Source: Thauera aromatica K172
Lineage (GTDB): Bacteria > Pseudomonadota > Gammaproteobacteria > Burkholderiales > Rhodocyclaceae
DNA: 64,000 bases
Assembly: GCF_003030465.1 (NCBI RefSeq)
Contig: NZ_CP028339.1
Span: forward strand, 2,232,001 to 2,296,000
Direction of reading: 5' to 3'
In this document: positions 4,394 through 45,872 of the stretch, piece by piece
Numbering within the stretch: the stretch's first letter is position 1
Layout: each line of letters opens with the position of its first letter
The notes under the pieces: generated by a model
The model's input: the letters and a program-made list of their open reading frames with translations, nothing else
Databases searched by the model: none
What the model was told of the DNA's origin: nothing
Translations under genes and position numbers: made by a program

Positions 4394-4405
4394 ATTCCGC
4401 TACCG

Positions 4406-5844: not shown

Positions 5845-6008
5845 TGCCGGGCCTCCTTCGCTTCTTCGTGGATACGCGACTTCTCCAGCCGGTGAAGAAT
5901 CTCGCTGTTCAGGGACCGATGATTCTCGATCGCACTGTGCTGCAACCATCGCTTGAGATCGTGCGGCACCCGTACCGGAGTCGGGCTGATTTGACTTGCT
6001 TTCTTCAT
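5841..6008 (-). CDS. Arc-like ribbon-helix-helix repressor
   Basis: A 55-residue protein, MKKASQISPTPVRVPHDLKR then WLQHSAIENHRSLNSEILHRLE, with the beta strand and two helices of the Arc/MetJ fold. ATG 6008 is preceded by AAAGGAG. It is the first gene after a strong leftward promoter and overlaps the antirepressor start (ATGA). The expected role, from P22 Arc, is to repress its own promoter and so limit antirepressor synthesis after infection. Confidence 0.85.
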   Translation of the reverse strand: MKKASQISPTPVRVPHDLKRWLQHSAIENHRSLNSEILHRLEKSRIHEEAKEARQ

Positions 6009-6073: not shown

Positions 6074-6104
6074 GTGGCGATCATGAAAAAATCGCAAGTG
6101 GCGA
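6067..6104. repeat. Direct-repeat operator of the immI-like module
   Basis: ATCGCAAGTGGCGA occurs twice, at 6067-6080 and 6091-6104, a perfect 14-bp repeat with a 24-bp period, between the divergent Arc-like and Mnt-like genes. Arc/Mnt-type proteins bind as tetramers to repeated half-sites on one DNA face; the spacing of about two helical turns fits. Confidence 0.75.
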
Positions 6105-6118
6105 GTATCATCTGCGCC

Positions 6119-7412: not shown

Positions 7413-10400
7413 CTACTTCACGTTCCCGACCGCCTCCCGCCACCGCTTCAGGTACGCCTCGTGAATGTCCGAGCGGCGTTTTTCTGTCAGCTTAAGCTGC
7501 ATCCGCTTCTCGGCTTCAGTCATCATTTTGCTGTCCTTGGTGCGCTTGTCTTGCTCGTAGGTGCGTCCAAGCTGCTCCATGTACGCCTGGGTAAAGCTCC
7601 CGACGCTAATCATGACCTCGTTCGACTTCATCATCTCCGTCGCAATCTCAGGGCTCACCTTCCGCGCATCCCTGTGCGCATTGAAGGCCGGCAAGGCTTG
7701 GTTGGCCACCTCGTAGAACTTGCTCTGATCCTGGCGGAATCCGATCTCGCCATAGGCTTTGCGAAGGAAGGGCGCCTTGGTGATGTCCTCTTCGGCAATC
7801 GCATCGTAGCTGCCCGACAAGAAGGACATCGGCCCGCCAAGGTACGCACGGGCGTAGTTGCGCCACACAGAAGGCGGCATCGAAATCAAACCCTCTTCGA
7901 ACTGATTGCCCCCCGTCGCCTCATTGACGAACGCAGCCCACTTCTGCCAGCCCGTGTCGTGCATGCCGGCGCCGTACTTCTCCGAGTCGGGCTTGTGCTT
8001 GTTCCATTGCGTTTCGGGGTACAGGGGGCCGTCGCCGAATCCAGACTTGTTTGCAAAGTGCTGGTGGACCGGTGCGTAGGTGGGCGGATAGCCAGTCACC
8101 GGCATGAACGAAGTCGCGCCGGACACCGCAAGCCGAACCGCAGCACTTCCCGGCTTGATGCCGTGCGCGGCGTTCTCGCTGTTGCGATGCACGTCCACCG
8201 CAAGGGTGGCGGCGTACATCGGCACGTTCCACTGGTACGGCAGCGGAATCTTGAAGTACCGACCCGTCGAGTCGGGGATGGGCTGGCCGATGTCCTTGGC
8301 GAACGACGGCAGCACGATGATGATGTTTCGCTCCTTCTCGTACTGGGGAATCTTGTCCCAGTAGGGGATGCCGTCATCGTCGTCACCGGCCATTGCGTTC
8401 AGCACCGCAAGCGCTGCCATGCCGGCCATGCCAGCGCCGATCAGCGCCCACGCCTGGCCCTTGTGCTTGCCATGCACCAGGGTTTCGTACATGTTGTGCA
8501 CGCCCTGAACGGCCGGATTGAAGAACAGGAAGATGGAGCCGAGGCCGGCCGTCCAGGTGCCGCGGCGGTTGAAGTTGACGTTCAGGTTCTTCGCAAAGTG
8601 CGCTGCCTCGGCCTTGCTGCGCCCCGCTTCACGCATCGCCATGTAAGCCGCCAGACGGGTTGCGTTCTCAAGAGCGCCGGCATGGCCGGTGACAAGCCGC
8701 TCCAGTGCTTTCGCCGCCTTCACCGGCACGCGCCACGAGTTCTTGATCGTCAGCGACTCCATCTCTTTGACCAGCGTCTCGATCTCCTTCACCTTGCTTT
8801 CCAAGGTGTTCAGGTTCCAGAAGCCGGTCTTGCCGCCCATCGCTTTGTACTCTTCGTACAGCGGGTCTTTCGCAGCCTTCACGCCGGGGATATTCGGCAT
8901 GGCCTCGCCACGGTACGCAGCCAGCACGGCGCGCGGGTAGTTCTTGGCGAACAGGCCGGTCATGCCGATGCCTTCGCGCCCGGTAATCGAGAACAGCGCG
9001 GCCTGCAAGTCACGCGCCGGGTTGGTGTAAAGCGCAAACTCAGGCGACCAGGCGGTGTAGGACTTCGACAGGTAGCGGTTGAACGCTCCGATGTACGGGA
9101 TCGCGCCGAACTCCACGTCGTTCCAGTGGTTCGCCATCTGCTCGAACAGCTTCCGATCATGAATCTTCAGATAGACGACGTGACCCTTCACCTTCACCCC
9201 GATGGTGCCGTCGCCCTTATCGACCAGCGAATCCAGCGTCACCTTGCCGTTCTTGAAGCCCTGCTTCGTCTTCTGTGCGTCGATCTCCCACAGGTCCGGG
9301 TCGGGGTTGTCGATGATGAACTGAAGGAAGCGGTGGTTCACTTCCGTGTTCTTGGTGCCGCGAACAATTGCGCGCTCGGCGTCGAGCATGATGTTCTCGA
9401 AGAGTTGACCGGCCTTCGAGTCGCGACCTAGTGCGCGCAGGTTTTCACTGCCGCGAATGTTGAAGCCCCTGCCGGTCCCCCGAAACGTGCGCCCGTCTTC
9501 GTCAATCGTCTCGAACCCGCGCAGCGGAACCCACTTCCGGTACTTGGCGTTGTAGGCGTCGAACTCGCCCTGTGTGATGAGTCCGCTATCGAGCTGGAGC
9601 TGAAGCGTGTCGCGGGCGATTCGACGGATCGCGTCGGCCAGTCGGGCCAGCTTTGCGTCCGTCCCTTCCTGCCTGGCCTTGTCGATGATGGCCTTTGCTT
9701 CGGCGTCGGACATGCCGGAGCCCGTCTTCACGTGGGCATTGATCGACTGCATCTCAGCATTTCGCTCGGGTGCGTGCTCCGCGTAGGCATACAGCACCAC
9801 TTCGTCCAAGGAAACGCCGCTTGCCTTTACATCCTCAAGGATGGCTTTGGTCTTTTCGCCAAGCTGCTCGATGCGGTTTGACGCAACACCGTGGAAGCGG
9901 TCTTCGCCCCAGTCAAAGTTGTTCAGATCGGTAACGACGCCGCCTTGCTCTGCCACCGCTTTCACGACATCGCGAAGTCGGTTGTAGCGGTCCTGGATGC
10001 GCTCTTGCGCGGTGTCGGTTTTCTTCCAAGGGGGAAGCTCGAATCCGGCAGACCCATGCTGGGCTGGAAGCGCGGCCTGGCCGGCGCGAGAGAAATTGAG
10101 GTGGCCGCGCCCAGCTTGACCTCCGCTATCTTCAGGGATCACAATTCGGACATCCCCGGTATCGCTTCGGGCGTAGGACGGCACGATTCGATCCTTGATC
10201 GCTTCAAAATCCGTCGTACCGGGGTACTTCCTCATGCTGGTCATTGCCAGCGTCTTGCGCCCCGATCGCACCTCTTCAAGATACAGCACAGCCCCGTCAG
10301 GAAGCCGCTTCAGGCTTCCGACGATGTCCTGTCCGCGCGGCGTTTTCGCCCCCAACAGCCAAGCGTCAGGAGTGCTGACGATTTCCGGTATTGCGGAGAT

Positions 10401-13400
10401 GTCAGATTCCACCAAAGGGAGTTGGCCCCGCTTGGCCTCTGCCTTCGCGTCACCATGCCGATTAAGCGCATGGCGCACCGCGAACATGTCCGCCGTGTGT
10501 TTGAAGCTGACATCCACGGGGACGTTCTCGCGCTGCAGCAGGCTGGCCTGTTGATCTGTCACCGTCCCGAGCGTTACCGTCTTGTTCTCGTTTCCGGCAG
10601 ATCTCGCCAGGGCGACCAATCCTCGAAGGGCGCTCTTCAGTGCGTCGCCAATCCGGCTTTGCCCCGCCTGCCCTGCGACATCCCCTCTCGCCATGTCGCG
10701 CACGTTGAGCTTCGCCAGCGCCACCAGATCATCGATGCTCGGGTTCAGCGCCACGCCGCGGCGCAGACCCCAGGCGCGCACCATCGCCACGAAGTCGCGC
10801 ACGAGATCGCCGACACGCTTGCCCAGCTTGCGGTCGATCCAGTTCATCAGTGCGCCATCGACCGTCGAGAAGCCGGCTTGCCGGCCTTCGGTGACGGCCT
10901 GCTCCACGATGTAGGCTGCGGCCTCGGCCGCGTTACCCGTCTCGCCGGCGTCGTCCATGCGCTGCGCCACGCGCGTCAGGAACTCCCGCACCGGCTTCAC
11001 CGCGTTGTCACGCACCTCGATCAGCGCCAGCGCGCGCGCATCGATCTCGGCGCGCTGCTTGCCGTGGGTGGCCTCGTGCAGCAGCACGGCCGCCGCGGTG
11101 TGATCGGCGAGGTGCGGCAGCACGAGGAAGGTCAGGCCGCTGTCGCTGTCGTGAAAGCCCTGCACGTCGCCCGCATCCGAATACTGCGTGCCGTCGCCCT
11201 GCAGCGCGTGCAGCACGTCGCCCGGGTCGTTGCCCGTCTTCTCGGCATAGGCGCGCGCGATCGAGACGTCGTCGCCCTGCTCGATCAGCACCAGGCCGCC
11301 GCGCTGCCCCGCTTCGCCGCGGCCGAGCATCTGGTCGACGGCGCCGGCCAGGGAGGGCAACTGGCGCGCGACGATGGCGCGCAACGCCTCCGCGGTCATC
11401 GGCGAGGGGCGCGCGTGCGTCGCCACCGCGTTGGCCGGCGTCGGCGCGCTGGCCATCTCGGTGCCGTTGAACACCACGATCACGTCTTCATCGGCCACGT
11501 CGGCGGTCGCGCTCGGCGGCATCGCGCGGCGCTCGGCGTCGGTCATGCGCTGGCGGGCCTGTGCGTTGCGGGCTTCCACCTCTCCGGCCAGACGGCGGTA
11601 CTTTTCGGCCGGCGTGCCGGGCATCCGCCCCAGATCTCGCGAGGAATTTTCCTCCGCGAGGATGCTGGCTTCGGGTGCCGCATCGCGGCCGAGCGTGTTC
11701 AAGAACCATGCGCGCGCCTCGCCGAGACTCTCGCCGCGGTCCATGCGTGCGCGCAGCACCTTCGCGTCGTTCATCGCCTGCGGCGACGGCATGGTTTCCT
11801 CGAGGCTGGCAATGCTTCCGCCAGTCGCGAAGCCCTCAGCCTCCTGAATGCCGTGCTGGATCTCGTGCAGCAGCACCGACAGCGCATCGTCTTTGGTTCG
11901 CGCTTCGACGGTGATCTGCGGCGAGCGCCCAAACGTTTGATCGTCACCCGGATGACCTTCTTCGAACATGCCTCGCTCACGCGAACCCGGCGAGAACGAG
12001 ATCACCACGTCCATCGAGCGCAGCTCCGGGTATGCGGCAAACAGCGCAGGGTGGTCTAGGATGTCGGACAAATAAGTCGCGCGAGATCCGCCGTATTCGT
12101 CCTCGCGCATATTGACGAGGCCTGCGTCCGCATCGTTGATCTCGAAGCGCCACTTCCCGTCGGCTCCGCGGTGCCACCCGGTCTCCCGCCGCACGACTTC
12201 GGCATCCTCGCCGGCCTCGATGCGCCGCTGCGCGACATCGAGCGCCATCGTGTCGGCAGTGCGGGCGTTCTGGCCGGCGAAGGAGTAACGAAGATTGACA
12301 ACATCTTCGTCGGTGATTACTCTTGGATTGAGCCTCTTGATGGTGTTCGCCTCGGGCAATTGGAGCCCGACTGCACGAAGCCATCCTGAGGCTTTTTCTG
12401 TTTGGTAGTAGCGCAGACTGCCGCGCATCCACCGCTCGATGTCTGCGGCATCGTCCTTGCCATAGATGCTGGCGACCTTGTTGATGCGGTGAAAGCCGCC
12501 GCCCTTGGCATCGAGGTGCACCGCCACAACGACCGGGCGGTCGCTGTCGTCACGCGCGTCGACCAACGCGACCAGCGCCCCTTTCTCCGTCTTCGAGTCA
12601 AAGACCATCACCGGATCGGCCAGCAGTGCCGGCAGATCGCGCAGCGCCGCAACAGGCACGTCGTGCCCACGAATGGCCGGTCGGCTGGCCTTGTGGATCA
12701 TGCTCGACGGCATCTGAATCGGCAGCGCCCTGGCGCCCAGCGCGCGCAGCACGGCGGGGGTATCGCCTACGGTCAGATCGCTGCGCGGCGCAGTCTCCAT
12801 TGCTGCGATGCGATCAACCGCCAGCGCGTATTGCTGGGCGTCATAGGGGTCGGGCCTGAACTGCGATGAGCGGCTGAGCTTCAGCCCGCCCTGGCCCGTC
12901 AGGTTCTCCATCGGGTCCATGCCCAGCTCGAACGTGTCGGCTGCGGCTTCACTGCGACGGCGGACTTCTGCGCGCCCTTCCTCCTGGCGCTGCTTGGCTG
13001 CCGCTTCACGCTCGGCGCGGGCGTCGGCTTCCGCCTGTGCGGTCTGCTCGGCTTCGCGCTGGGCGATGTCGGCGCTGGTGTAGGTTTCGAGCGTCAGCCC
13101 TTCTTGCTGTCCTGCTGCGCCCGCTTGTGTTTGCGCTGCGCCAGTTTCACCAGCCCGTTCGCCAGTTGTTGCCGCTCCTCTGACGTCAGTCGCTTCAGCG
13201 CTTCCTGCGCCTGCTTCAGTTTGTCCGCCTGCATTTGCAATTTCCTCTTCGGTGAAACCCAACGTACGCATGGCGTCGGCTTCGGATTGTTCGGCGAAGT
13301 CTCCGAATGCGTCATCGAAGAACTCGGCTACTTCGCGAGCGTCTGGATTGTTCAGCACGGCATCGAACGACGCCTCGAAGTCATACATCGACTGATCTTC

Positions 13401-16199
13401 GGGCGCCAGATAGCCAGGATTACGCTGAGCGTCCAGCCATTCCATCATGCCCTCGATGGTGCGCGCGGATTTGACCGGAATCCATTTGCCCTGCGCGGCA
13501 TCCTCGATGTGCTGCGCAAGAACGTCCGGGCGCGCTTCCATGCCCGACAAAAACCATTCTGCGCGCGGAATCCATTTGGTGCGACTAGCCTTGCCTTCAG
13601 CATCGCGGATGAGCTTTCCACCTTGCTCTGCCCATCCGGCGTCTTGCGCCATGGCGCGAAGGTCGTCGACCACCGGCATCGCGCGCTGAGTCAGGGTAGG
13701 GTCAGGTTTCAGGCGGGAACGCGCGTCCGCCGCTTTCGCCTGTGCCTGCGCGGGATTCGGCGGGTTCGTGTCCGGAGGAATGTCCGGCTGGACCGCTTGC
13801 GCCGGCGCGGCCACGGCAGCTCCTGCGCGACGGAAAGCGGCTGCCATCGCCGAGTCCGCATGCTGATTTACACCGGCCGCCTCTGTGCGCGCCACGGCCT
13901 GGGCGATATCCTGGTCCACGGCCTCGGCGTGCAGCAGCTCGAGCTCCCTCCCCTTCTGCTCTTCGCGCTGGCGGTAGGCGTAATCTTCCTCGCGCCTGCG
14001 CAGCTCGGCCGCCGCGGCGTCGCGCGCTGCGGGGTCGGCGTGCGCGCGCGCCGTGAAGAGAAGCCCGGCCGGCGAAAGACTGGCTACGTCGAGCCGGCCC
14101 GCATGAGGCTCCGCACCGACAGGGGGGTTACGCTCGCCTTCGCTCACGTCCGTTCGGCGCCCCTCTCCCTGGTCGCCCTGCATGAACCCAGCCACGTCGC
14201 CGAACTCCGTACTGACGCGTTGCTTGGCGCCGGCGACGGCTTCCATTACCGGGCCGGCGAAGCGGGTCGACACCATCACCGCACCATCCTTGCGCGTGAG
14301 CGTCGGCGCCTCGGGGGCAACGGCCTTCACCGCCTCGGCGGCGCGCTCGCCGGTGACGATGACGTTGCCGTGGGCGTTGGCGACGGCCTCGACCTGCGCG
14401 AGCAGCGCGTCCTGGTCGACGTCGATCGTACCGGGGCGGGACGTTTGGGCGGCTGGAGCCGGTTGGCCTGCGCTGCGCACGGCGGCATTCTCGGCGCGCG
14501 TCACGGCAAGCTCCGCCGCGTCGCCGGTGGATGCGGCTTCGGCTTCGCGCTGCTGCAGGGCCTGCTCGATTGAGGCGGCAGCCTGTTGGGCAACGTCCGC
14601 CATCGCCGGCATTGCCGCCGGCGCCTCCGGGGCGACCGGCGCGGCACGTTGGACTTCGGCCCACTGCGCATTGCTCGGGTCAAGCGCCTGGCGGGCAAGG
14701 GCGTCGACCTGCCCCCGATAGGCGGCCTCGGCAGCAACCTGCTCGGGGTCCGCGGCCTGCGCCGGGGCGGCGTTGATCGCGCCCACTGCGGCGCCCATCG
14801 GCCCGGCGGCGGCCGCTTCCATCGTTCCATGGTTGGCGATCTGGCGCAGATCCAGCCCGTCGCGTGTACCCTCGACGATCTGGCCCGTCTGCGAGCCGAG
14901 GGCTTCGCTCGCGCCCTCGCCGAACTCCTGCGCCGTCTCGACGGCGGCGGTGCGCCCTGCCGCAACGACCGGATTGGCCGTGCCGGCCGTGCCGCGCGCC
15001 ACCACGCCCTCGGCGCCGCCGGCGGTCAGCTTGCCCACGGCGCGGGTGCCCAGCCCCGCGATCAGTGCCGCGGTGTACTTGGCAAGATCCCCGCCTTCGG
15101 TTTCAGCGTAGGCCGAGCCGGCGTTTGCGGCGGCGTTGGCCCACACCGCGCCGTCGGTGGCAGCCCGCTGCTGGATGCGCGCCAAGGCCCGCTCGGACAC
15201 GCGCCCGGCGTACCTGCCCGCCACCGCCTTGCCGGTGGCCGCGCCGGCGCCGCCGATGAGGAAGATCGACCCCGCGCTCGGGATCGCCACATCGGCGAGC
15301 AGATCGGGGTTCTGTACGAGGTGCTGCATCACCTGGTCGGGCGTGCCGTTGCGCACGACTTCGGCGAGTTTGGCACTCTTGCCCTGCATCTGGCGCGACT
15401 GCGACTTGCTGATGTCCTCGATCACGTCAGCGAGCGCATCCGACCCCCACTCGGCCGCGCGCCCTACCAGCGGCGCGAGCTGCAGCACGTCGAGCGCCAT
15501 CTTGCCGGTGGTGGGCGCCACCTTCGCCACCGAGCCGGCCAGGTTCACCGCGCCGCGCACAAGGTCACTGTCGCCGTGCTCTCGCGCGAGCTTGTCGGCG
15601 AGCGTGTCCGGGGTTTCGACCGCACGCGCCACCGGTGCATCAACGCCGGCAGCGCCCTGGCTCGCGGCGGTCATCGCGGCGGCATCGGCGTCCATGCCCT
15701 GCTCGATGCCACGGGCGATGCGCGACTCCTTGCGGCCGTCGAGATTCTGCGCAGCCGGCAGCCCAGCGGTGGCGGCGTCGCCCTGGCGGTACTCGGCATC
15801 CATCTGTCGGGCAAGGTCGCCCACCCAGTCCTGGCGCGCGAGCAGCCGCGGGCGCGACTCGGGGAAGCGCTCGTAGCTCTGGCGCACGAAGTCGATCGAG
15901 GCGGGGTTCGCCGGGGTCGTGCGCGGCGCAGCAGGCGGCGCCTCGAATCCGGCCATCACGGTGTCGGGCTTTTCCGGCGCGCGCTCGAACGGGGCCGCCA
16001 TGTTCTCGAACAGCTTCTTGCCGGCGGTGATCGCGCGATCGGTGAGGCTGGGCCCGGCCGGGGGGTCTTCCACATCCTCGAAGCCCGACCAGTCTTGAGC
16101 TGTTGCGTCCGGGGCCACATCCTCGAAGCCCGACCAGTCTTGAGCTGTTGCGTCCGGGGCCACATCCTCGAAGCCCGACCAGTCTTGTTCTTTCGCCAT
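7413..16199 (-). CDS. Giant polyvalent internal virion protein (2928 aa)
   Basis: Largest gene of the window, at the end of the late operon, where podoviruses place ejected internal proteins. Regions seen: 2.6 copies of a 15-residue repeat DWSGFEDVAPDATAQ at residues 5-43; glycine-rich hydrophobic stretch near 300-340; coiled, alanine-rich region 450-900; a MuF-C-like domain near 1120-1300; HEIQH (about 1443) and HEATH (about 1706) zinc-peptidase-like motifs; a phage barnase/EndoU/RelE-like (PBECR2) segment near 1920-1990; an LPD38-type C-terminal part from about 2300 with FLFFNPAVQG and a membrane-like segment near 2580-2604. Such polyvalent proteins are thought to enter the host with the DNA. 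ATG 16199 has AGAGG 8 bp upstream. Domain borders are estimates. Confidence 0.88.
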   Translation of the reverse strand: MAKEQDWSGFEDVAPDATAQDWSGFEDVAPDATAQDWSGFEDVEDPPAGPSLTDRAITAGKKLFENMAAPFERAPEKPDTVMAGFEAPPAAPRTTPANPASIDFVRQSYERFPESRPRLLARQDWVGDLARQMDAEYRQGDAATAGLPAAQNLDGRKESRIARGIEQGMDADAAAMTAASQGAAGVDAPVARAVETPDTLADKLAREHGDSDLVRGAVNLAGSVAKVAPTTGKMALDVLQLAPLVGRAAEWGSDALADVIEDISKSQSRQMQGKSAKLAEVVRNGTPDQVMQHLVQNPDLLADVAIPSAGSIFLIGGAGAATGKAVAGRYAGRVSERALARIQQRAATDGAVWANAAANAGSAYAETEGGDLAKYTAALIAGLGTRAVGKLTAGGAEGVVARGTAGTANPVVAAGRTAAVETAQEFGEGASEALGSQTGQIVEGTRDGLDLRQIANHGTMEAAAAGPMGAAVGAINAAPAQAADPEQVAAEAAYRGQVDALARQALDPSNAQWAEVQRAAPVAPEAPAAMPAMADVAQQAAASIEQALQQREAEAASTGDAAELAVTRAENAAVRSAGQPAPAAQTSRPGTIDVDQDALLAQVEAVANAHGNVIVTGERAAEAVKAVAPEAPTLTRKDGAVMVSTRFAGPVMEAVAGAKQRVSTEFGDVAGFMQGDQGEGRRTDVSEGERNPPVGAEPHAGRLDVASLSPAGLLFTARAHADPAARDAAAAELRRREEDYAYRQREEQKGRELELLHAEAVDQDIAQAVARTEAAGVNQHADSAMAAAFRRAGAAVAAPAQAVQPDIPPDTNPPNPAQAQAKAADARSRLKPDPTLTQRAMPVVDDLRAMAQDAGWAEQGGKLIRDAEGKASRTKWIPRAEWFLSGMEARPDVLAQHIEDAAQGKWIPVKSARTIEGMMEWLDAQRNPGYLAPEDQSMYDFEASFDAVLNNPDAREVAEFFDDAFGDFAEQSEADAMRTLGFTEEEIANAGGQTEAGAGSAEATDVRGAATTGERAGETGAAQTQAGAAGQQEGLTLETYTSADIAQREAEQTAQAEADARAEREAAAKQRQEEGRAEVRRRSEAAADTFELGMDPMENLTGQGGLKLSRSSQFRPDPYDAQQYALAVDRIAAMETAPRSDLTVGDTPAVLRALGARALPIQMPSSMIHKASRPAIRGHDVPVAALRDLPALLADPVMVFDSKTEKGALVALVDARDDSDRPVVVAVHLDAKGGGFHRINKVASIYGKDDAADIERWMRGSLRYYQTEKASGWLRAVGLQLPEANTIKRLNPRVITDEDVVNLRYSFAGQNARTADTMALDVAQRRIEAGEDAEVVRRETGWHRGADGKWRFEINDADAGLVNMREDEYGGSRATYLSDILDHPALFAAYPELRSMDVVISFSPGSRERGMFEEGHPGDDQTFGRSPQITVEARTKDDALSVLLHEIQHGIQEAEGFATGGSIASLEETMPSPQAMNDAKVLRARMDRGESLGEARAWFLNTLGRDAAPEASILAEENSSRDLGRMPGTPAEKYRRLAGEVEARNAQARQRMTDAERRAMPPSATADVADEDVIVVFNGTEMASAPTPANAVATHARPSPMTAEALRAIVARQLPSLAGAVDQMLGRGEAGQRGGLVLIEQGDDVSIARAYAEKTGNDPGDVLHALQGDGTQYSDAGDVQGFHDSDSGLTFLVLPHLADHTAAAVLLHEATHGKQRAEIDARALALIEVRDNAVKPVREFLTRVAQRMDDAGETGNAAEAAAYIVEQAVTEGRQAGFSTVDGALMNWIDRKLGKRVGDLVRDFVAMVRAWGLRRGVALNPSIDDLVALAKLNVRDMARGDVAGQAGQSRIGDALKSALRGLVALARSAGNENKTVTLGTVTDQQASLLQRENVPVDVSFKHTADMFAVRHALNRHGDAKAEAKRGQLPLVESDISAIPEIVSTPDAWLLGAKTPRGQDIVGSLKRLPDGAVLYLEEVRSGRKTLAMTSMRKYPGTTDFEAIKDRIVPSYARSDTGDVRIVIPEDSGGQAGRGHLNFSRAGQAALPAQHGSAGFELPPWKKTDTAQERIQDRYNRLRDVVKAVAEQGGVVTDLNNFDWGEDRFHGVASNRIEQLGEKTKAILEDVKASGVSLDEVVLYAYAEHAPERNAEMQSINAHVKTGSGMSDAEAKAIIDKARQEGTDAKLARLADAIRRIARDTLQLQLDSGLITQGEFDAYNAKYRKWVPLRGFETIDEDGRTFRGTGRGFNIRGSENLRALGRDSKAGQLFENIMLDAERAIVRGTKNTEVNHRFLQFIIDNPDPDLWEIDAQKTKQGFKNGKVTLDSLVDKGDGTIGVKVKGHVVYLKIHDRKLFEQMANHWNDVEFGAIPYIGAFNRYLSKSYTAWSPEFALYTNPARDLQAALFSITGREGIGMTGLFAKNYPRAVLAAYRGEAMPNIPGVKAAKDPLYEEYKAMGGKTGFWNLNTLESKVKEIETLVKEMESLTIKNSWRVPVKAAKALERLVTGHAGALENATRLAAYMAMREAGRSKAEAAHFAKNLNVNFNRRGTWTAGLGSIFLFFNPAVQGVHNMYETLVHGKHKGQAWALIGAGMAGMAALAVLNAMAGDDDDGIPYWDKIPQYEKERNIIIVLPSFAKDIGQPIPDSTGRYFKIPLPYQWNVPMYAATLAVDVHRNSENAAHGIKPGSAAVRLAVSGATSFMPVTGYPPTYAPVHQHFANKSGFGDGPLYPETQWNKHKPDSEKYGAGMHDTGWQKWAAFVNEATGGNQFEEGLISMPPSVWRNYARAYLGGPMSFLSGSYDAIAEEDITKAPFLRKAYGEIGFRQDQSKFYEVANQALPAFNAHRDARKVSPEIATEMMKSNEVMISVGSFTQAYMEQLGRTYEQDKRTKDSKMMTEAEKRMQLKLTEKRRSDIHEAYLKRWREAVGNVK
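13094..13234 (-). CDS. Possible embedded overlapping gene inside the giant gene
   Basis: A 46-residue frame, same strand but shifted relative to the giant gene: MQADKLKQAQEALKRLTSEE then RQQLANGLVKLAQRKHKRAQ. It looks like a charged amphipathic helix. AGAGGA lies 8 bp before its ATG. In this stretch the giant protein is a low-complexity G/A/T/E sequence, so the shifted frame looks more protein-like than the main one. It may be a real internal gene or the trace of an old double frameshift. Confidence 0.35.
   Translation of the reverse strand: MQADKLKQAQEALKRLTSEERQQLANGLVKLAQRKHKRAQQDSKKG
16071..16186. repeat. 45-bp tandem repeat at the 5' end of the giant gene
   Basis: Unit beginning CACATCCTCGAAGCCCGACC, copies at 16071-16115, 16116-16160 and a partial copy to 16186, identical to each other. 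It keeps the frame and encodes the DWSGFEDV repeats. Confidence 0.9.
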
Positions 16200-25532: not shown

Positions 25533-25972
25533 TACAGCCCCAGCTTCGCCCGCTCATCCCTACCCCACTGGCGCACCGACTCGACGAACTCGCCGAACAC
25601 CGCCATCTCCTGCGTCTCGTCGCTCGTCGGCGCGTACAGCCCGTTCGCCGCGCCGACGCCGATGCGGGCGAAATACATCTCGTCGTCGAGCGTGTAGGCG
25701 GCACGGATCTGCTCGACCATGCGCTGCGCGATCAGCCGGCAGGCGCGGCTTTCGACCTTGATGCGCTCGCGCAGCCCCGCATCGAGCGCGACCGGCGTCA
25801 GCGTGATCTCCGGGTGCTGCGCCGGCAGCACGGCGCCGTCGGGCATCGACACGTAGGCGAGTCCGTCGAGCGTGCAAAGCTCGAGCGCGCCCTCGGGCAG
25901 CTGGGCGCGCAGGCTGCGCCCGTTCGGGCCGGACTCGATGATCGGGGTGTAGCTATAGATTTGTGCAGGCAT
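25532..25972 (-). CDS. Conserved phage protein downstream of the reverse transcriptase
   Basis: 146 residues, MPAQIYSYTPIIESGPNGRS start. N-terminal half beta-like (LPEGALELCTLDGLAYVSMP), C-terminal half helical with FARIGVGAANGLYAPTSDET. Start ATG 25972 overlaps the reverse transcriptase end by 20 bp, so it can be translated from the DGR transcript, but its position also fits the start of the lysis block. I do not recognise the family. Confidence 0.68.
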   Translation of the reverse strand: MPAQIYSYTPIIESGPNGRSLRAQLPEGALELCTLDGLAYVSMPDGAVLPAQHPEITLTPVALDAGLRERIKVESRACRLIAQRMVEQIRAAYTLDDEMYFARIGVGAANGLYAPTSDETQEMAVFGEFVESVRQWGRDERAKLGL

Positions 25973-26966
25973 GTCGGTGCGCCTCCGGGAGTTGCGGGAC
26001 AAGGTCGGGCCGCTCGGAACGCAAGCGGCGGCAGAAGTGGGCGTAGCTCGCACTGTGGCGCGCGTTCCCCATGATCGACACGAGGCTCGGCACGTCGCCG
26101 TGCCGCAGCGAGCGCGAGAAGGTGTGCAGACTGTGGCGGCGCACGAAGCGCGTTTTGCGCCAAGCGCGGAAGCCGACGAAATTCACGCCGCGCCGGGTCG
26201 GCTGGATCGTGTAGCGCGACAGTTCGAGGCGCAGGCGCTCGTGCAGGAACGTTTCGATCTGTAGCCGCAGCGCGTTCGCCTCGGCGCGCGACGCGATGCC
26301 GAACACGATGAAATCGTCGACGTAGCGCACATACCGCTTGCGGCCGAGCTCGCGCTTGATGAAGTGGTCGAGCGGGTCAAGGTAGATCAGCGCGAACAGC
26401 TGCGACAGCAGGTTGCCGATCGGAATCCCGGTCGAGTCCGGGTAACGCGCGAACAGTTCGAGCAGCGCGAGCAGCCGCCGGTCCTTGATCCTGCGCGCGA
26501 CCAGCCGCATCAGCCGCGCGCGGTCGATGCGGTAGAAGAACTTGCGGATGTCCATCTGCAGCGTGACGCTGCCGTCTGGCGCGTCGCGCAGGAACTGTTG
26601 CGCGCGGTCGGCCGCCCGGTGCGTGCCCTTGCCCTTGCGGCAGCCGTAGCTGTCGTGGATGAATCCGCGATCGAAGATCGGGTAGATCGCCGCATAGATC
26701 GCGTGCTGCACTACGACGTCGCGAAAGTGCGGCGCATGGATCAGGCGCGGCTTCGGCTCGCGCACCTCGAACGTCACGTAGGGGCGCGGCGCATACGTGC
26801 CGGCGTGCAACTCGTCGTGCAGCCGCTGCAGATTCGCGCCGAGGTCGCGCTCGAATGCGGCCACCGCGACCTTCTTGCGCTTGCGCCGGCGCGCGGCGAG
26901 ATAGGCCGCGTGCAGCACGTCAGGCGTGAAGCATTGATCGAACAGATTGCCGTGGCGTTTAGGCAT
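25953..26966 (-). CDS. Reverse transcriptase of a diversity-generating retroelement
   Basis: 337 residues from ATG 26966. RT motifs in order: RPYVTFEVREPKPRLIHAPH, motif A QMDIRKFF with D139, the DGR-type motif GIPIGNLLSQ at 180-189, and the catalytic YVDD at 215-218 (RYVDDFIVFG). There is no maturase X or endonuclease domain, which argues against a group II intron, and no msr/msd structure as in retrons. It lies just downstream of a template repeat and the avd gene. It copies template RNA with errors at adenines into cDNA that replaces the variable repeat of the fibre gene. Confidence 0.95.
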   Translation of the reverse strand: MPKRHGNLFDQCFTPDVLHAAYLAARRRKRKKVAVAAFERDLGANLQRLHDELHAGTYAPRPYVTFEVREPKPRLIHAPHFRDVVVQHAIYAAIYPIFDRGFIHDSYGCRKGKGTHRAADRAQQFLRDAPDGSVTLQMDIRKFFYRIDRARLMRLVARRIKDRRLLALLELFARYPDSTGIPIGNLLSQLFALIYLDPLDHFIKRELGRKRYVRYVDDFIVFGIASRAEANALRLQIETFLHERLRLELSRYTIQPTRRGVNFVGFRAWRKTRFVRRHSLHTFSRSLRHGDVPSLVSIMGNARHSASYAHFCRRLRSERPDLVPQLPEAHRHACTNL

Positions 26967-27096
26967 GGCGGATGGTCCCCACAGCCGTGGCGGGTACTGA
27001 AACGCCATGCCCTGCCGATTTCGCCAAAATGCAGGACGGAGCCATCCCTATGTCGCCAGTATTTGCTGTGTGCAATGTCAGGTCAGCGAAGGCGAA

Positions 27097-27216
27097 ATAG
27101 TCGGCGCAGCGAAAGCCCGCGTTGTTGTTGTCGTTCGACCGGCCGTTGCTCCAACCCCGGTAGAAGACGCCAGCGTTCGCAGCGTTGTTCCAGTTGCCGG
27201 AGGCATACGGGAAAAG
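27097..27216 (-). repeat. DGR template repeat (TR)
   Basis: 120 bp between avd and the reverse transcriptase, aligned without gaps to the variable repeat (offset 589 bp) with 13 mismatches. All 13 fall on the 24 adenines of the coding-strand TR; none of the 96 other positions differ. Many AAC codons are present, the codon type that DGR mutagenesis turns into many amino acids. Confidence 0.96.
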
Positions 27217-27234
27217 CATTTCGATGGCCCGCCC

Positions 27235-27642
27235 TTATTCGGCCTGCGGGCTCGCCCGCAGACTCCGAATCCAGCCGCCGATCATCGCCCCCAGTTCGTT
27301 GATGAGGACCGACACGGCGGTATAGCGACGCAGCGACTCGGCGGCGCTGCGCGCGCGTTTGTGATGCTCGAACTCGAAATAGCCCAGCTCGAACGCGAGA
27401 TTGACGAAGGTCCGCAACTGCTCGTGCCGAACGTCGAGCTTCGACAGGCTGGTCTTGTTGTGATAGCGCTTCTGGCACTCGACGATGCCCGCGAGCACGT
27501 CATAGACGGCTTGCCGGATCTCCTGGCACAGCCCGTATTTCTCGTGCCGCGGGAAGTGGTTCAGATTCACGTTGAGCAACAGGATCAGCTCGCGGCACTT
27601 GTGATGGATCGCGGCTTGCGGGTTCGTTGTGTTCGTGCTCAT
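27235..27642 (-). CDS. avd: DGR accessory variability determinant (Avd), four-helix bundle
   Basis: 135 residues, all helical: CRELILLLNVNLNHFPRHEK, then LGLCQ-type helix, SKLDVRHEQLRTFVNLAFEL and the last helix RYTAVSVLINELGAMIGGW. Avd forms a basic pentameric barrel that binds the reverse transcriptase and template RNA. It starts 34 bp after the target gene and ends 18 bp before TR, the classical order of the Bordetella phage BPP-1 cassette. Confidence 0.9.
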   Translation of the reverse strand: MSTNTTNPQAAIHHKCRELILLLNVNLNHFPRHEKYGLCQEIRQAVYDVLAGIVECQKRYHNKTSLSKLDVRHEQLRTFVNLAFELGYFEFEHHKRARSAAESLRRYTAVSVLINELGAMIGGWIRSLRASPQAE

Positions 27643-27652
27643 GGCATCAGGA

Positions 27653-27668
27653 CGGCGCTACCGCGCCG
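27653..27668. other. DGR hairpin/cruciform downstream of the variable repeat
   Basis: Perfect stem CGGCGC / GCGCCG with a four-base loop (TACC on the plus strand), 17 bp past the 3' end of VR and before avd. BPP-1-type DGRs need a short GC stem with a four-base loop at this place for homing; the match in place and form supports an active cassette. Confidence 0.7.
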
Positions 27669-27676
27669 CCGACCAG

Positions 27677-29968
27677 TCAATTTCCATAGGCGGCGCAGCG
27701 AAAGCCCGCGTTGGTGATGTCGCTCGACCGGCCGACGCTCCAACCCCGGCAGAAGACGCCAGCGACCGCAGCGCCGTTCCAGACGCCGGAGGCATACGGG
27801 AAAAGATTGGCGCGGCCATAGCGGTAATTGCCGTCGTTGCCGAACTGGTTCGTGCCGGCCGCGCTCATGCCGGTCGTCGCCGCTATGCCGCAGCACGAGC
27901 GCAGATAATCCGTGCCGCTCGTCGCGCCGCTGAACACCGCGTTGCTGCCGTTGCCAAAATAGTCCCATCCGGTCGTCGCGCCCCAGGGCAGAAAGCCGGT
28001 CACCGCGTCGTAATTGGTCGCCAGATTGGCCGCCGTGCCCCATGCGTCCGTTGCGCCGCCGAAGCCGTCAGTCAGGCTCGCCAGCGCGACGCTCTCCTTG
28101 AGTACGTAGGCGTCACCGGTCGTGATCGCGGTCGTATCGGTCGCGCTAGCGCCCGCTTGCGTGATGCCCAGCATCACTTGATACATCGCGCCATTCACGT
28201 CGGTCACGCCGCACGCCTGTCCGTTGTGCGTGGTTTTTGCGAGGCTGCTCGCGCTGCCGGTCTTCGGCTTGTTTGCGTTGCCCGAGTCGCCCGCGCTCGT
28301 AAACGTGACGCCGGTGTCGTTGGCGTCGGCCAGGGCGCTGTTGTTGCACCCCTTCGGGAAATTCGTTGTCCCGGCCGCGTCGTACCATGCGCAGTGCGTC
28401 GCGCTGGTTGCGGCTTGGCCGTGCGCGAGCGCGAGCTTCGCCAGCGCGTCATACATGAAGATGCTGGCGACGTTGAACACGCCCGCGCCGCGGCTGCGCG
28501 CCAGCACGACGGCATCGGCGAGGATGCCGGTGCAGCCTGTCATGCCGCTAGAGCGCGTGTACGTCGTCGTGGTCGTCAGCGAGATCGGCACGCCGAGCGC
28601 GACGGACTTGCACGAGGTCGTGCCGTTCCGGCTCGCGAGGTACTTGTCGATGAAAAAGCCCGGCTTGACCGCCCCGCCATCCTTGAATGCACGGTGCAGC
28701 GCGTAGCCTGCTGCGTTGGCTGCGGCCTCGTCGGCGAACGTCTCGATGCCCACGACATCGATCGCATTGGCGCCGTAGGTCGCATAGCGCGGGCTGGAAG
28801 CGTTGCCAATGCGGTAGTAGAAGCGCGGCACGAATACCATCACCGAGCCGTCGCTGTACTGGTAGTTGCCGTAATTTGCGCTCGCTTTGTCGCTCGTGCC
28901 GGCCATCGCGCTGAAGCCCGAGGGCAGCTCGGCGGGATATTCACCGACGCCGAACCCTTGCCCGCCCGGCGTGCCGACCAGACCGCCGAACGTGGCTTTG
29001 GTGGTGAATTTCACCGGCGCGCTCCACTCGGACAGGCCGTTGCTGTTCCCTTCGTCCTGCATTTGCCACCAGTACTCCTGGCTCGTGGATAGCCCAGAGA
29101 CGGTCCAGTTCAGCAGATTCACGGTGTCGCCAACGTTGCTGGCGATGATGTTCGTCATCGCTTGATCGGTCGCCACTCGGTAGCTGCGAGACTTTTGCGT
29201 ATCCTCCAGTCCGTACCAGGCGAAAGCCGAGCCGGTCAGCGTGACCGAGCCGCCTTGGTCGGTGGCACCATTGGCTGGCGATACGACAGTCGGCGTTTGC
29301 ACGCCGGCGGCCTGCGCGTCGATCACGAACTCGGTCGGCACGTCATCCATCGTCACCGTCAGCGTGACCGCGCCCGCGGCGGGTGGCGCAGTGAAGGTGA
29401 TCGTGTCTCCGGCGAGGCTGACCGTGCCGGCGCTGACTTGCACGACATACTCGGAAAACGCGCTGTAGTTGGTGATGGTGTAGGTTTTTTCTTGTGTGAC
29501 GTATGGGCTGGGGTCGCCGGAGAGGGTTACGCCGACGCCGCTCCGAATCTCGATATTCCCGGCGCCCAGGAGGACCTGGCCGTTGACGGTCTTGATGTTG
29601 GCGCCGGAAACAAGGGTCGCCTGCTTGCTCTCGATCGCCTGCAGCGCATCAGACAGCGCCCCGGCGGTCAGCCGCAATTCAGCCCGCGTGCCTGCCGCCC
29701 AGGCCTGCGCTGCCGTACCTTCTTGCGCACGTTCAACGGTAAGCACGCCGCCCGTGCGGGCCGTGCACTTGACGATCTCCCATGCTGCCTCGTTGCCGTT
29801 TTCATCCAGGCCAATCAGGGTGGCTCTGAATATGCCGTTCGCGGCATCCGGGAAGAGAGCCCCGCTGGTGACTTCGATTACCGTGTCTTCCGCTGCAGCC
29901 GGCGCCACCAGCGTCGTGATTGCGTTGTTGGCAAATTGCTCCACGCTCAAATCTCCTTCACGCGACAA
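27677..29968 (-). CDS. DGR target: tail fibre with variable C-type-lectin domain
   Basis: 763 residues. The N-terminal 150 look like a fibre base (MSREGDLSVEQFANNAITTL, FANNA and coiled segments), then an Ig-like beta domain near 155-230, a fibronectin-like domain near 235-330 and a C-terminal domain from about 350 that ends in the FGE/C-type-lectin pattern of DGR receptor binders (NLFPYASG, RGWSVGRSS, NAGFRCAAYGN). The variable repeat covers residues 722-761. Nine residues differ from the template. It overlaps the upstream gene by 22 bp. Expected role: trimeric receptor-binding tip whose surface is diversified. Confidence 0.93.
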   Translation of the reverse strand: MSREGDLSVEQFANNAITTLVAPAAAEDTVIEVTSGALFPDAANGIFRATLIGLDENGNEAAWEIVKCTARTGGVLTVERAQEGTAAQAWAAGTRAELRLTAGALSDALQAIESKQATLVSGANIKTVNGQVLLGAGNIEIRSGVGVTLSGDPSPYVTQEKTYTITNYSAFSEYVVQVSAGTVSLAGDTITFTAPPAAGAVTLTVTMDDVPTEFVIDAQAAGVQTPTVVSPANGATDQGGSVTLTGSAFAWYGLEDTQKSRSYRVATDQAMTNIIASNVGDTVNLLNWTVSGLSTSQEYWWQMQDEGNSNGLSEWSAPVKFTTKATFGGLVGTPGGQGFGVGEYPAELPSGFSAMAGTSDKASANYGNYQYSDGSVMVFVPRFYYRIGNASSPRYATYGANAIDVVGIETFADEAAANAAGYALHRAFKDGGAVKPGFFIDKYLASRNGTTSCKSVALGVPISLTTTTTYTRSSGMTGCTGILADAVVLARSRGAGVFNVASIFMYDALAKLALAHGQAATSATHCAWYDAAGTTNFPKGCNNSALADANDTGVTFTSAGDSGNANKPKTGSASSLAKTTHNGQACGVTDVNGAMYQVMLGITQAGASATDTTAITTGDAYVLKESVALASLTDGFGGATDAWGTAANLATNYDAVTGFLPWGATTGWDYFGNGSNAVFSGATSGTDYLRSCCGIAATTGMSAAGTNQFGNDGNYRYGRANLFPYASGVWNGAAVAGVFCRGWSVGRSSDITNAGFRCAAYGN
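27686..27805 (-). repeat. DGR variable repeat (VR) with adenine-free IMH-like end
   Basis: Last 120 bp of the fibre gene before its stop. The 19 bp at 27691-27709 are identical with TR and free of coding-strand adenines, as expected for the initiation-of-homing region. Beyond 27686 VR and TR sequences part completely. Amino-acid changes against TR: seven Asn (to V, G, V, V, S, I, T), Tyr to Cys and Asp to Ala. Confidence 0.96.
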
Positions 29969-30228
29969 AAGAGTTCGTCTTCAAGAATTTCCCCGCCCGC
30001 GGTCGTGACCTTGATGGTGATCTTGTATTGCACCCCATCCGTGCCGCCGCTTACCCAGATCCGGGCGCGATCCCCCGCCACGAGAACCGGGGATACTTCA
30101 AGCCCAGCAGGCTCAGCCCTGCATTCGTCGATCGTTCCGATCTCGTCGCCTGGGTCGAGCGCATCGGTGTAGATCACACTCTTGCTCACGCGCTCACCCG
30201 GCTGCTTGCTGAAAGAGCCCAACTTCAT
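29947..30228 (-). CDS. Probable fibre-tail adaptor protein
   Basis: 93 residues, beta-sandwich-like: KSVIYTDALDPGDEIGTIDE, then VLVAGDRARIWVSGGTDGVQ and a last strand KITIKVTTAGGEI. The pattern SGGTDGxxYxIT is common in small phage proteins annotated as fibre-tail adaptors. It precedes the DGR fibre gene and overlaps it, which supports joining of fibre to tail. Confidence 0.68.
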   Translation of the reverse strand: MKLGSFSKQPGERVSKSVIYTDALDPGDEIGTIDECRAEPAGLEVSPVLVAGDRARIWVSGGTDGVQYKITIKVTTAGGEILEDELFCRVKEI

Positions 30229-43766: not shown

Positions 43767-43888
43767 GCCTCGCCTCCCATCCCGCCCGTAAAAGGGTCGG
43801 GCGTGCGGGGGCGGGCAGGCATCGCCCCCGCGCCGGTGGCCACCGGCTGCCCGATTGAAAGAAGAAGGTCTTCGTGCCGGAAAGGCAT
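43763..43888 (-). CDS. Small 41-residue coupled protein
   Basis: MPFRHEDLLLSIGQPVATGA start, proline/glycine-rich end. Its ATG shares a base with the antirepressor stop (TGATG) and its stop overlaps the HNH start (ATGA), so it is embedded in a translationally coupled chain. No function recognised. Confidence 0.55.
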   Translation of the reverse strand: MPFRHEDLLLSIGQPVATGAGAMPARPRTPDPFTGGMGGEA

Positions 43889-44706
43889 CACTGGATCGTC
43901 CTCACAGACGGCGCCGGCAGCGCCTTCGGCTTGCGCGGCTTCGGCAAGGCATTGGGCGGCATCGCGCGGCCCCGGCTCGCGTGCGGCTCGAACGGCGCCA
44001 CATCGCCCTCGCGCAGCGCGCGCAGGCCCGCAATGGCCGCGCGGGCGACCGCCTCGGCAAAGCCGCACTCCTGGCCCCACGCGCCACTGAATCCGCCCTG
44101 TTGTGCATGGTCGAACGCCGGCCCGGAGAGGGCGGTCTGGATCGCCTTGCACGCTTCGGCTTCATCGAACTCGGCGAGCTGCGCCACCTCGGCGAAGAAC
44201 GCCGCACCCTGCGCGAACGCCGCGCCCCAGTCGTCATCCTGCCCGTGCGCCACGCTCCAGTTGATGAGCCGCCCCTGCTCGTCGCGGCGGGTGAAGGAAA
44301 GGTCGTCGCGGCTGCGGATTGCCCGCTTCACCGGGGCGGCCGCCGGCGCCGGCAGGCCCAGTGCCTGCTTCTCCATCGCGATGAAGTAGCGCCGCGCCAG
44401 GCGGCCCTGCGCGTTGTTCTCGACCATCGACAGCTCTTTGGCCATGTCGAGGGAGAGGTGGTAGTCGGTGCTGTTGTGACCGCCGCGGGTTTTGCTTCCC
44501 AGATTTGGGAAGCAAACGGTGAAGTCTTCGCCTTCGACGAATCCGTACTGCTCGATGCGCAACTTGATCCAGTCGGGGAATTTCTTGCCGACCTGCAAGA
44601 AGGCATGCAGATCGCGGGCATTGCACAGAAGGGTTTCGATGCCGGCCAGGGTGCCGGTGAAAACGGGGACGAGCGCGGTGGACGCGCCTTGGGCGGGGTG
44701 TGCCAT
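43888..44706 (-). CDS. AntA/AntB-type antirepressor
   Basis: 272 residues. Residues 30-115 (VGKKFPDWIKLRIEQYGFVE, then LSLDMAKELSMVENNAQGR and ARRYFIAMEKQ) form a clear AntA/AntB domain. The C-terminal part is alanine-rich with a basic proline tail. ATG 44706 fits the domain; the open frame continues upstream only by chance. This is a second antirepressor besides the BRO one. A perfect 11-bp-arm palindrome lies in the coding part (44491-44516) and a 7-bp-arm palindrome just upstream of the start. Confidence 0.85.
   Translation of the reverse strand: MAHPAQGASTALVPVFTGTLAGIETLLCNARDLHAFLQVGKKFPDWIKLRIEQYGFVEGEDFTVCFPNLGSKTRGGHNSTDYHLSLDMAKELSMVENNAQGRLARRYFIAMEKQALGLPAPAAAPVKRAIRSRDDLSFTRRDEQGRLINWSVAHGQDDDWGAAFAQGAAFFAEVAQLAEFDEAEACKAIQTALSGPAFDHAQQGGFSGAWGQECGFAEAVARAAIAGLRALREGDVAPFEPHASRGRAMPPNALPKPRKPKALPAPSVRTIQ
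44491..44516. promoter_or_regulatory. 26-bp perfect palindrome inside the AntA/AntB gene
   Basis: TTTGCTTCCCA / TGGGAAGCAAA with loop GATT. The CTTCCCA half-site recurs at 44749, 44783 (inverse) and 44912, outside the gene. The set may be operators around the antirepressor promoter. Confidence 0.5.
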
Positions 44707-44859
44707 GGTGATGTGCTCCGATCGGTTCGTTGCGAACCGCCCATCTCGCTTCCCAACGAGGGTGGGCGGCATCCGAACGGGGTGGGAAGTACCGGCGGAG
44801 CACCGGCGAGCCTTGCGGCTCCCCCGCCCGGCGCCGCCCATAGAGGACACACCAGACGC

Positions 44860-44893
44860 AAAAAAGCCGCTCTGCAGAACGCTGTGCGGCTTT
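44860..44893 (-). terminator. Leftward terminator upstream of the AntA/AntB gene
   Basis: Minus strand: AAAGCCGC, 15-nt loop, GCGGCTTT followed by more T (six in all). It lies in the path of the leftward early transcript between the RHH gene (45612) and the antirepressor, so that transcript must be antiterminated or restarted. Confidence 0.8.
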
Positions 44894-44989
44894 CGGCCGC
44901 TCCGATTCGGGCTTCCCAACCCGGTCGCCGGCTGTTTTCCGGCGACAGGCGAAGAGTAGTCCGGGCGGGCATGCAAGTCAATGCTTGTG

Positions 44990-45008
44990 TGTGCATTCGA
45001 ATGTGCAT
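44990..45008. promoter_or_regulatory. Probable BrnA operator before brnT
   Basis: CATTCGAATG palindrome within two direct copies of TGTGCAT (44990-44996 and 45002-45008), 13 bp before brnT. BrnA-type antitoxins repress their own operon through such repeats; identity of the binding protein is inferred. Confidence 0.5.
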
Positions 45009-45020
45009 ACACTGCAAGGC

Positions 45021-45296
45021 ATGGAGATTGAATTCGACCCGGAGAAAGCTGCGCTGAACCCCTTGAACCACGAAGGGGTGACGTTTCAAGAAGCGGCGCC
45101 GGTGCTGCTCGACCCGTATGCCCTGACCCGTGAGGATGAGGATGCCACGGGCGAACCCCGCTTTGTGACGCTGGGCATGGGCGGCCGGGGCCGGATTCTG
45201 ATCGTGGTGTGGACGCTGCGCGGTGACAATCCGCGCCTGATTTCGGCCTGGAAGGCCAACAAACCGCAACGGAGCCGCTATGAGCAACAATTCTGA
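45021..45296 (+). CDS. brnT: BrnT-type RNase toxin
   Basis: 91 residues, MEIEFDPEKAALNPLNHEGV start and FQEAAPVLLDPYALTREDED, RFVTLGMGGRGRILIVVWTL, RLISAWKANKPQRSRYEQ. This is the full BrnT pattern (RelE-like ribonuclease, R/S/K near the end). Toxin precedes antitoxin as in other brnTA pairs and overlaps it by 17 bp. Could stabilise the prophage or act in defence. Confidence 0.92.
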   Translation: MEIEFDPEKAALNPLNHEGVTFQEAAPVLLDPYALTREDEDATGEPRFVTLGMGGRGRILIVVWTLRGDNPRLISAWKANKPQRSRYEQQF

Positions 45297-45570
45297 CCCG
45301 ATGTTCGAGCAGTACGCCGACATGGATTTCACCGACGCCAAGCCCGTCGCCAAGGTGCCGGCGCTGGCCCGGCTTCAGGCCGAGCGCGGCGGCAAGTCGC
45401 GCATCACCATCCGCATCGATAACGCGACCTTGGCCGTGTTCAAGGCCCGCGCCGAAATGGCCGGCGGCAACTACCAGACGCTGATGAACGAGGCGTTGGC
45501 TCAGGCTGCGCAGGGGGTGACGCTGGCCGACGTGGTGCGCGAGACGATCCGGCAGGAGCTGCGCCACTAA
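45280..45570 (+). CDS. brnA: BrnA-type antitoxin
   Basis: 96 residues. The C-terminal GKSRITIRIDNATLAVFKAR and NYQTLMNEALAQA form the ribbon-helix-helix domain; the N-terminus binds toxin. Overlaps brnT and converges with an Arc-type gene. Confidence 0.9.
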   Translation: MSNNSDPMFEQYADMDFTDAKPVAKVPALARLQAERGGKSRITIRIDNATLAVFKARAEMAGGNYQTLMNEALAQAAQGVTLADVVRETIRQELRH

Positions 45571-45611
45571 GCGAAGATCGGCCGCCCCCGCGCCGGCCGC
45601 CTGGATCGCAC

Positions 45612-45872
45612 TCATTCCCCTTGCCCGCCCGATTCCTTCCCTGCTCCGGCAACCAAGGCCAAGCGGTGGGCATATAGACTGGCCACGTACTCATGACCAT
45701 GGACGTGCAGCATGACGAGCTCGCGCAGGTACTCGCTGGTGGACATGCCGGCATTGCGCGCCGCGCGGTCCAGCCCGTCCTTGGTGTCCTCGGGAACGCG
45801 GATCTTCGGCAGCTCGGCCGTGAGTTTGCCCAGCGGGCTGGTGTGGCCGCTGCGGCTCAATGAAAGTGACAT
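45612..45872 (-). CDS. Ribbon-helix-helix protein, paralogue of the 49.3-kb gene
   Basis: 86 residues: GKLTAELPKIRVPEDTKDGL and DRAARNAGMSTSEYLRELVM form an RHH fold with a C-terminal tail. The same arrangement, GKLTAEIPKIRVPDDTKDEL, is found at 49342-49605, so the prophage carries two paralogues. Leftward, after the cro-like gene; a DNA-binding regulator is likely. Starts at ATG 45872 with GAGAG upstream. Confidence 0.75.
   Translation of the reverse strand: MSLSLSRSGHTSPLGKLTAELPKIRVPEDTKDGLDRAARNAGMSTSEYLRELVMLHVHGHEYVASLYAHRLALVAGAGKESGGQGE

Follow-up and report, generated by a model that had tools for sequence, protein, structure and literature searches.

A complete, apparently intact diversity-generating retroelement with a tail-fibre target in a prophage of Thauera aromatica K172

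Whether a phage integrated in the chromosome of Thauera aromatica K172 carries the means to alter the tip of its own tail fibre is the question raised by a stretch of 64,000 nucleotides of this genome (contig NZ_CP028339.1, positions 2,232,001 to 2,296,000), hereafter the window. An earlier reading of the bare sequence (the original prediction) had placed a complete diversity-generating retroelement (DGR) at 25953-29968, and this layout was borne out by the reading frames and the repeat pair: a target gene ending in a variable repeat (VR), avd, a template repeat (TR) and a reverse transcriptase (RT) gene follow one another on the minus strand, where all parts of the element described below lie. 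We regard the locus, with a probability of about 0.88, as an intact phage DGR which diversifies the tip of a prophage tail fibre by mutagenic retrohoming. Judged by its sequence, the element is complete and apparently intact within a prophage of 62 kb. Systems of this kind are well known, and the element adds one more example to them without being categorically new. That this particular copy is active and may switch the host range of its phage is what we infer from the evidence set out here.

The repeats carry the core of the argument. VR (27686-27805) and TR (27097-27216) form an ungapped pair of 120 nt with 89% identity, 589 nt apart, and the 3' end of VR is followed after 6 nt by the stop codon of the target, so that VR lies at the 3' end of this gene. 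All 13 mismatches among the 120 positions fall on TR adenines (seven A>G, four A>T and two A>C), of which TR holds 24, while none of the 96 other positions is mismatched; the probability that 13 randomly placed mismatches would all hit adenines is P ~3e-11. The 3'-most difference (A of GAC at TR 27101, C of GCC at VR 27690) reads, by comparison with related sequences, as a fixed mark of the lineage and not as a product of mutagenesis, which leaves 12 mutagenic changes. Of the TR codons within its first 114 nt, 13 contain adenines whose change could alter the residue, allowing ~1e13 possible proteins. An RT, a TR and a VR of this type each occur once in the host genome (3.71 Mb, two contigs); the search of both contigs for second targets gave no further TR or VR.

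The frames of the target, avd and RT genes are all open and, besides, keep their conserved residues. The RT gene (25953-26966) encodes 337 amino acids from ATG 26966; the start of the frame as first drawn (27008) is probably early, because similarity to the best solved relative, 8ub7 (4e-53), which we take to be the BPP-1 enzyme, begins at residue 15. The predicted span does hold the cassette, but two start codons in it, this one and that of the target (see below), had probably been placed too early. The motifs GIPIGNLLSQ and YVDD, on which the assignment to DGR enzymes had been based, are both present, and the protein matches PHROG 1423 (6e-107). In a midpoint-rooted maximum-likelihood tree of 66 RTs, 54 rows on the DGR side were separated with a support of 100/100 from 12 outside enzymes, which come from related genomes, are presumed to be RTs of group II or of other kinds, and include one long branch flagged by a warning. 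A TR/VR pair was demonstrated for 39 of these 54 rows, including the window, BPP-1 and Pseudomonas phage Bise, and the other 15 came from short loci unchecked for one. The window RT fell within a clade of 19 rows (support 100/99), outside of which BPP-1 was found; a position of the enzyme away from the DGR RTs, which the original prediction had named as decisive against itself, was not what the tree returned. RT matches of some kind occurred in 60 of 200 related genomes, the best at 55% identity. The avd product (27235-27642, 135 amino acids) passed the cut-offs of NCBIfam DivGenRetAVD NF033474 (83.6 bits, cut-off 80) and Pfam bAvd PF22296 (60.1 bits, cut-off 40) and matched PHROG 3206, 'Avd protein of DGR' (3e-26); its proposed four-helix nature agrees with a match of 26.1 bits (cut-off 24) to the 'four helix bundle protein' subfamily of NCBIfam.

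The target gene is best read from 27677 to 29944: TTG 29968 is merely the first start codon of the frame, and GTG 29944, preceded by the ribosome-binding sequence AAGGAGAT, gives a protein of 755 amino acids. Residues 3-124 match the tail-fibre chain 8jov_1 (E 2e-13), presumably from phage GP4, and PHROG tail-fibre families match the protein as well. Just upstream, on the same strand, lies a gene (29947-30228) of the Pfam family PF23148, 'Podophage GP4 fiber-tail adaptor protein gp77' (E 3.9e-19). The middle of the fibre was modelled as Ig/Fn3-like domains, and since such domains made up most of the listed matches of the full-length structure search, the C-terminal part was folded alone. The last 431 residues (27680-28972), aligned with 35 relatives into a profile, matched 5vf4 with E 6.9e-8; the model of this part (predicted local distance difference test, pLDDT, 84.7; predicted template modelling score, pTM, 0.90) had chains of 5vf4, 'Thermus aquaticus variable protein (TaqVP)', as its three best matches in the PDB (E 5e-14 to 2e-13), with Mtd variants, formylglycine-generating enzymes (FGE) and TvpA following at E 0.008 and weaker. 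A Pfam search at E 0.01 gave no match in any of the 36 aligned members of this C-terminal domain. The lectin-like end proposed for the fibre thus gains definition, and the domain is predicted to be a DGR variable protein of the FGE-type C-type-lectin fold with VR at its C-terminus, as described for TaqVP (PMC6328139).

Adenine-biased repeat pairs were sought by script in three sets of related loci (L023-L053, L054-L132 and L133-L212). None was found in L029, L041, L042 and L053, in 29 of the 79 loci of the second set and in 15 of the 80 of the third, and the BPP-1 pair was returned on its other strand only. After BPP-1, copies of the window locus and a tandem-repeat artefact (L078) had been dropped, 120 distinct TRs remained, the window included. 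A number of loci (L058, L059, L064, L067-L070 and others) contain homologous targets but gave no TR/VR pair in this search; they would be either cut contigs or targets without a nearby DGR.

A terminal TR GAY with matching flanks was readable in 86 of the 120 pairs, and VR had GCY in 82 of them, the adenine being kept in four (L048, L168, L202, L204). The 34 unreadable cases include CATG/CCTG (L184, L203, L209), CAAG/CAGG (L189, L207, L208) and one TR without GAY at its end (L043). Since other elements have other end differences or none, the mark is typical of the lineage and not of DGRs generally. An origin of the terminal A-to-C change by mutation was considered and rejected: of 3174 internal TR adenines, 1489 were unchanged, 848 had become G, 467 T and only 370 C, as against GCY in 82 of 86 at the end. 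In L079 (6923-7604), a natural exception and also one of the 34 unreadable cases, TR itself has GCC at the position of the mark, the same as its VR.

In BPP-1 the direction of transfer is set by the difference between the initiation of mutagenic homing sequence (IMH) and IMH*, with 5 mismatches in 21 bp (PMC3240598). The fixed difference present in the window resembles this one, as well as the TGGGGT/TGGAAT pair of archaeal DGRs (PMC4372165), and we suppose that it would work as an IMH. The adenine-free run before the mark has a median of 17 nt (range 1-20, 75% GC; 83 TRs under a slightly different criterion), compared with a median of 4, a 95th percentile of 19 and a maximum of 30 for other such runs in the same TRs, so the run is long yet not unique. 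No GAC/GCC mark was found in print, which does not establish its absence from the literature.

VR is followed by a hairpin (27647-27672), the loop of which, GGTA, satisfies the GRNA rule described for phage DGR hairpins (PMC3240598). Folded as DNA, it has a stability of -10.4 kcal/mol (z -3.1, with none of 200 shuffles as stable); a z of only -0.97 was obtained for a shorter piece, the cut of which lay inside the stem. Among 83 relatives, strict stems were present in 16 and stems by a looser rule in 22, while the short motif GC-GRNA-GC, the third hairpin criterion tried, occurred in 67, compared with 1% of shuffles. For a longer pattern the number was 53. Many relatives (e.g., L103, L150, L088) have GAGCGATAGCGA after VR, with a GATA loop closed by GC, and the flanks of this loop look like tandem G-A mismatches and not like a perfect stem.

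The spacer between TR and RT (26967-27096) appears, from its covariation, to be a structured RNA common to the relatives. From 67 sequences, 51 were aligned without the window, and 15 others were omitted (14 divergent ones, and Bise kept as a test); this selection makes a consistent fold more likely. Of the 14 pairs in the consensus, nine are changed on both sides. Pairing was found in 95.1% of the cells, compared with 77.1% in shuffles (0/500 as high), and the covariation was 0.473 against 0.147 in shuffles (0/500) and 0.03-0.10 with slid partners, a control that leans towards the fold because the structure was derived from the same alignment. Two measures were weaker: nine pairs changed on both sides compare with 7.0 in shuffles (reached in 10/500), and 27 further pair types with 23.2 (16/500). 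A covariance model built without the window or Bise recognised both, the window at 27123-26977 with 78.5 bits and Bise with 81 bits, and the window spacer was its sole match in its own genome; over 10 sources, the model gave a marginal 13 bits to L168. It found no match in the BPP-1 stretch searched, and Rfam at E<=1 gave nothing in 26900-27300. The BPP-1 spacer is described as folding and recruiting RT-Avd, an internal spacer adenine priming the cDNA (PMC12875486). A candidate for the priming adenine, after AGGG, was dropped, and no priming base is assigned here, because at this position some relatives have G and the consensus has a paired base.

Considering the mark and the spacer together, it is possible, if rather doubtful, that a DGR lineage of phages and genomes assigned mainly to Pseudomonadota and Campylobacterota has a retrohoming code of its own, in which GAC/GCC behind an adenine-poor run separates donor from recipient and spares TR, along with a spacer-RNA fold recognised neither in the BPP-1 stretch nor in Rfam. 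Lineage-specific IMH/IMH* pairs (TGGGGT/TGGAAT) have already been reported in archaeal DGRs (PMC4372165), so that such a code would sharpen an idea already known and make it testable.

Evidence of activity comes from the relatives. In 33 pairs of their contigs, which share members and hence are not independent, VR was aligned with gap columns excluded. Seven pairs had no VR difference (L026/L057, L027/L056, L035/L131, L086/L143, L096/L129, L103/L104, L147/L162), the first three of these being one contig fetched twice each. In the remaining 26, differences were much more frequent at the adenine sites of VR than at its other sites or in the flanks. In L103/L110, for example, differences were found at 9/22 VR adenine sites, 1/90 other VR sites and 0/10,492 positions elsewhere, and in L124/L128 at 13/26, 0/91 and 0/8182, respectively. 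L060/L062, the pair closest to the window target (69%), differed at 16/30, 1/90 and 142/3813, and a weaker case, L093/L106, at 17/29, 14/86 and 511/5888. Both VRs had GCY in all 26 differing pairs, and the 3'-most VR difference lay 5-25 nt upstream of it (at least 14 nt in 25 of the 26), as would be expected if conversion ended upstream of the mark. A VR unchanged in all relatives, part of the other outcome which the original prediction had held to be fatal, did not occur. Related elements are active in nature, which is evidence for the lineage and not for the window copy. The genome of Psychrobacter sp. 72-O-c contains three DGR loci (L147, L162, L167), of which the first two stand at separate places of a single contig and agree in every one of 12,984 nt, including VR.

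Several points weigh against our reading of the locus as a working, tropism-altering DGR. The element is known from one genome only, and the sole other copy found (L025), identical over 13,053 nt, is probably the same genome. The activity data come from relatives, and in the pairs without flanking substitutions the targets are only ~42% identical to the window target. Finally, among the NCBIfam models the RT agrees best with that of group II intron RT/maturase, at 1.8e-37 and 129 bits, although the cut-off of this model (300) was not reached.

Two other explanations draw on these points, and both seem to us improbable. According to one, the DGR has decayed: its parts persist, but VR no longer changes and the fibre has become a fixed adhesin. 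This would agree with the single VR sequence known for the element and with the relative pairs lacking a VR difference, at least three of which are the contigs fetched twice. It is opposed by the open target, avd and RT frames with their conserved residues, by a spacer RNA intact against the family model, and by a TR and VR which differ at adenines only, the 96 other positions being undecayed. According to the other, the DGR works, but its variable protein binds something other than a receptor (surfaces or a competitor) instead of switching tropism. Apart from the lack of a known receptor, this explanation can draw on the relatives, where the N-termini joined to the same C-terminal domain vary and short proteins (~450 amino acids) contain this domain as well; the window protein, by contrast, has the N-terminus of a podophage tail fibre and follows a fibre-tail adaptor gene. 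That the RT belongs to a group II intron or another RT family beside a coincidental repeat pair, as its best NCBIfam model might suggest, is refuted in practice by the tree and has hardly any probability left. The score of that model is far under its cut-off, the locus has TR and VR together with avd, the spacer RNA and the hairpin, and the Rfam search of 26900-27300 (E<=1) gave no match to an intron ribozyme.

For the preferred reading, an intact DGR acting on the tail fibre, the following sequence of events may be proposed. An RNA of avd, TR and spacer would be made, and its folded spacer, the fold of which is supported by covariation, would be used by RT-Avd to start cDNA synthesis, with recruitment and priming presumably as in BPP-1. 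RT would copy TR and misread its adenines, an enzymology consistent with the adenine-only differences seen. The cDNA would then replace VR up to a 3' boundary inside the run where adenines are rare, aided by the GCC-marked end and the hairpin; the VRs of relatives do change while the mark stays, and its role as a donor/recipient signal may be supposed. The changed residues would fall, by homology and according to the model, within the C-type-lectin-like domain at the fibre end, so that receptor binding, and hence host tropism, would vary.

How far the element resembles known systems can now be stated. The original prediction equated it with the cassette of BPP-1 (mtd-avd-TR-brt); this holds for the gene order only. 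Both also share adenine-only TR/VR differences, Avd, a hairpin after VR and a variable protein of lectin type, whereas the window RT is 37% identical to that of BPP-1 and stands on a separate branch of the tree, the spacer model does not match, and the repeat ends are reversed (C in TR and A in VR of BPP-1, A in TR and C in VR of the window). Comparison of the target with Mtd by hhalign gave no useful match (probability 2.5%, E 0.018, 38 columns), and the structural match was weak (E 0.008 at best). The closest elements found were those of a viral contig, IMGVR_UViG_3300000052_000039 (L026/L057), and of a metagenome-assembled genome of Polaromonas (L133), with RTs 77% and 68% identical to that of the window, respectively, and target C-terminal regions 74% identical in each; they have the same GAC/GCC mark but differ in TR, VR and fibre N-termini. 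Phage Bise, the best RT match in the phage collection (52%), has an RT of the same clade, the same mark and the spacer RNA, but its tail is contractile and its target, with 364 amino acids, is shorter; its RT and four-helix genes are annotated with no mention of a DGR. TaqVP (PDB 5vf4), from a Thermus aquaticus prophage, is the best solved relative of the C-terminal domain and likewise has VR at its C-terminus, but is only 15% identical in the structural alignment and is a single-domain protein (PMC6328139) without the fibre N-terminus and Ig/Fn3-like domains of the window protein. The likeness to podophage GP4 extends to the fibre N-terminus and the adaptor gene family; within the fibre it is confined to residues 3-124, and the variable domain showed no relation to GP4.

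The proposed location in a prophage received support from a 23-bp exact repeat, att-like in position, at both ends of the region, together with an integrase frame. The left copy is at 4275-4297 (no strand assigned) and the right one at 66425-66447 in window numbering, beyond the window itself, from which a prophage of ~62 kb follows; in the search of window positions 3001-6000 against 19 kb to the right, the next longest common word had 13 bp. The integrase frame (439 amino acids, 64892-66208) lies beside the right repeat and narrowly passed the Pfam cut-off (27.2 bits, cut-off 27.1). Genes of a SpoU methylase and an inositol monophosphatase to the left of the left repeat are taken to be host genes. 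The phage families present comprise portal, major head, terminase, internal virion, endolysin and antirepressor proteins, and the best match of the portal in the phage collection was that of Achromobacter phage CF418P1 (46% identity).

Near the left prophage end are encoded a BRO-N domain protein (5062-5949, minus strand) and an Arc-like DNA-binding protein (6074-6637, plus strand), followed by a giant polyvalent phage protein of 2928 amino acids (7413-16199, minus strand) with the Pfam domains MuF_C, LPD23, PBECR3 (nuclease-like) and LPD38. An Rfam C4 antisense RNA (44758-44845, minus strand; 51.2 bits, gathering 45) lies within a frame matching antirepressor proteins (43888-45615). A protein of 418 amino acids (53891-55147, plus strand) has an RdgC domain and, after it, an FtsK gamma domain, an arrangement of which we know no other case.

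Taken together, these results add to the known DGRs a well-formed one on a fibre of podovirus type, with a variable domain closest to TaqVP. They offer two testable features, a donor/recipient mark of one base seen in 82 of 86 readable pairs and a covarying spacer RNA that can now be searched for with a model. Natural contigs which differ only, or nearly only, in VR show that the lineage is at work in the environment.

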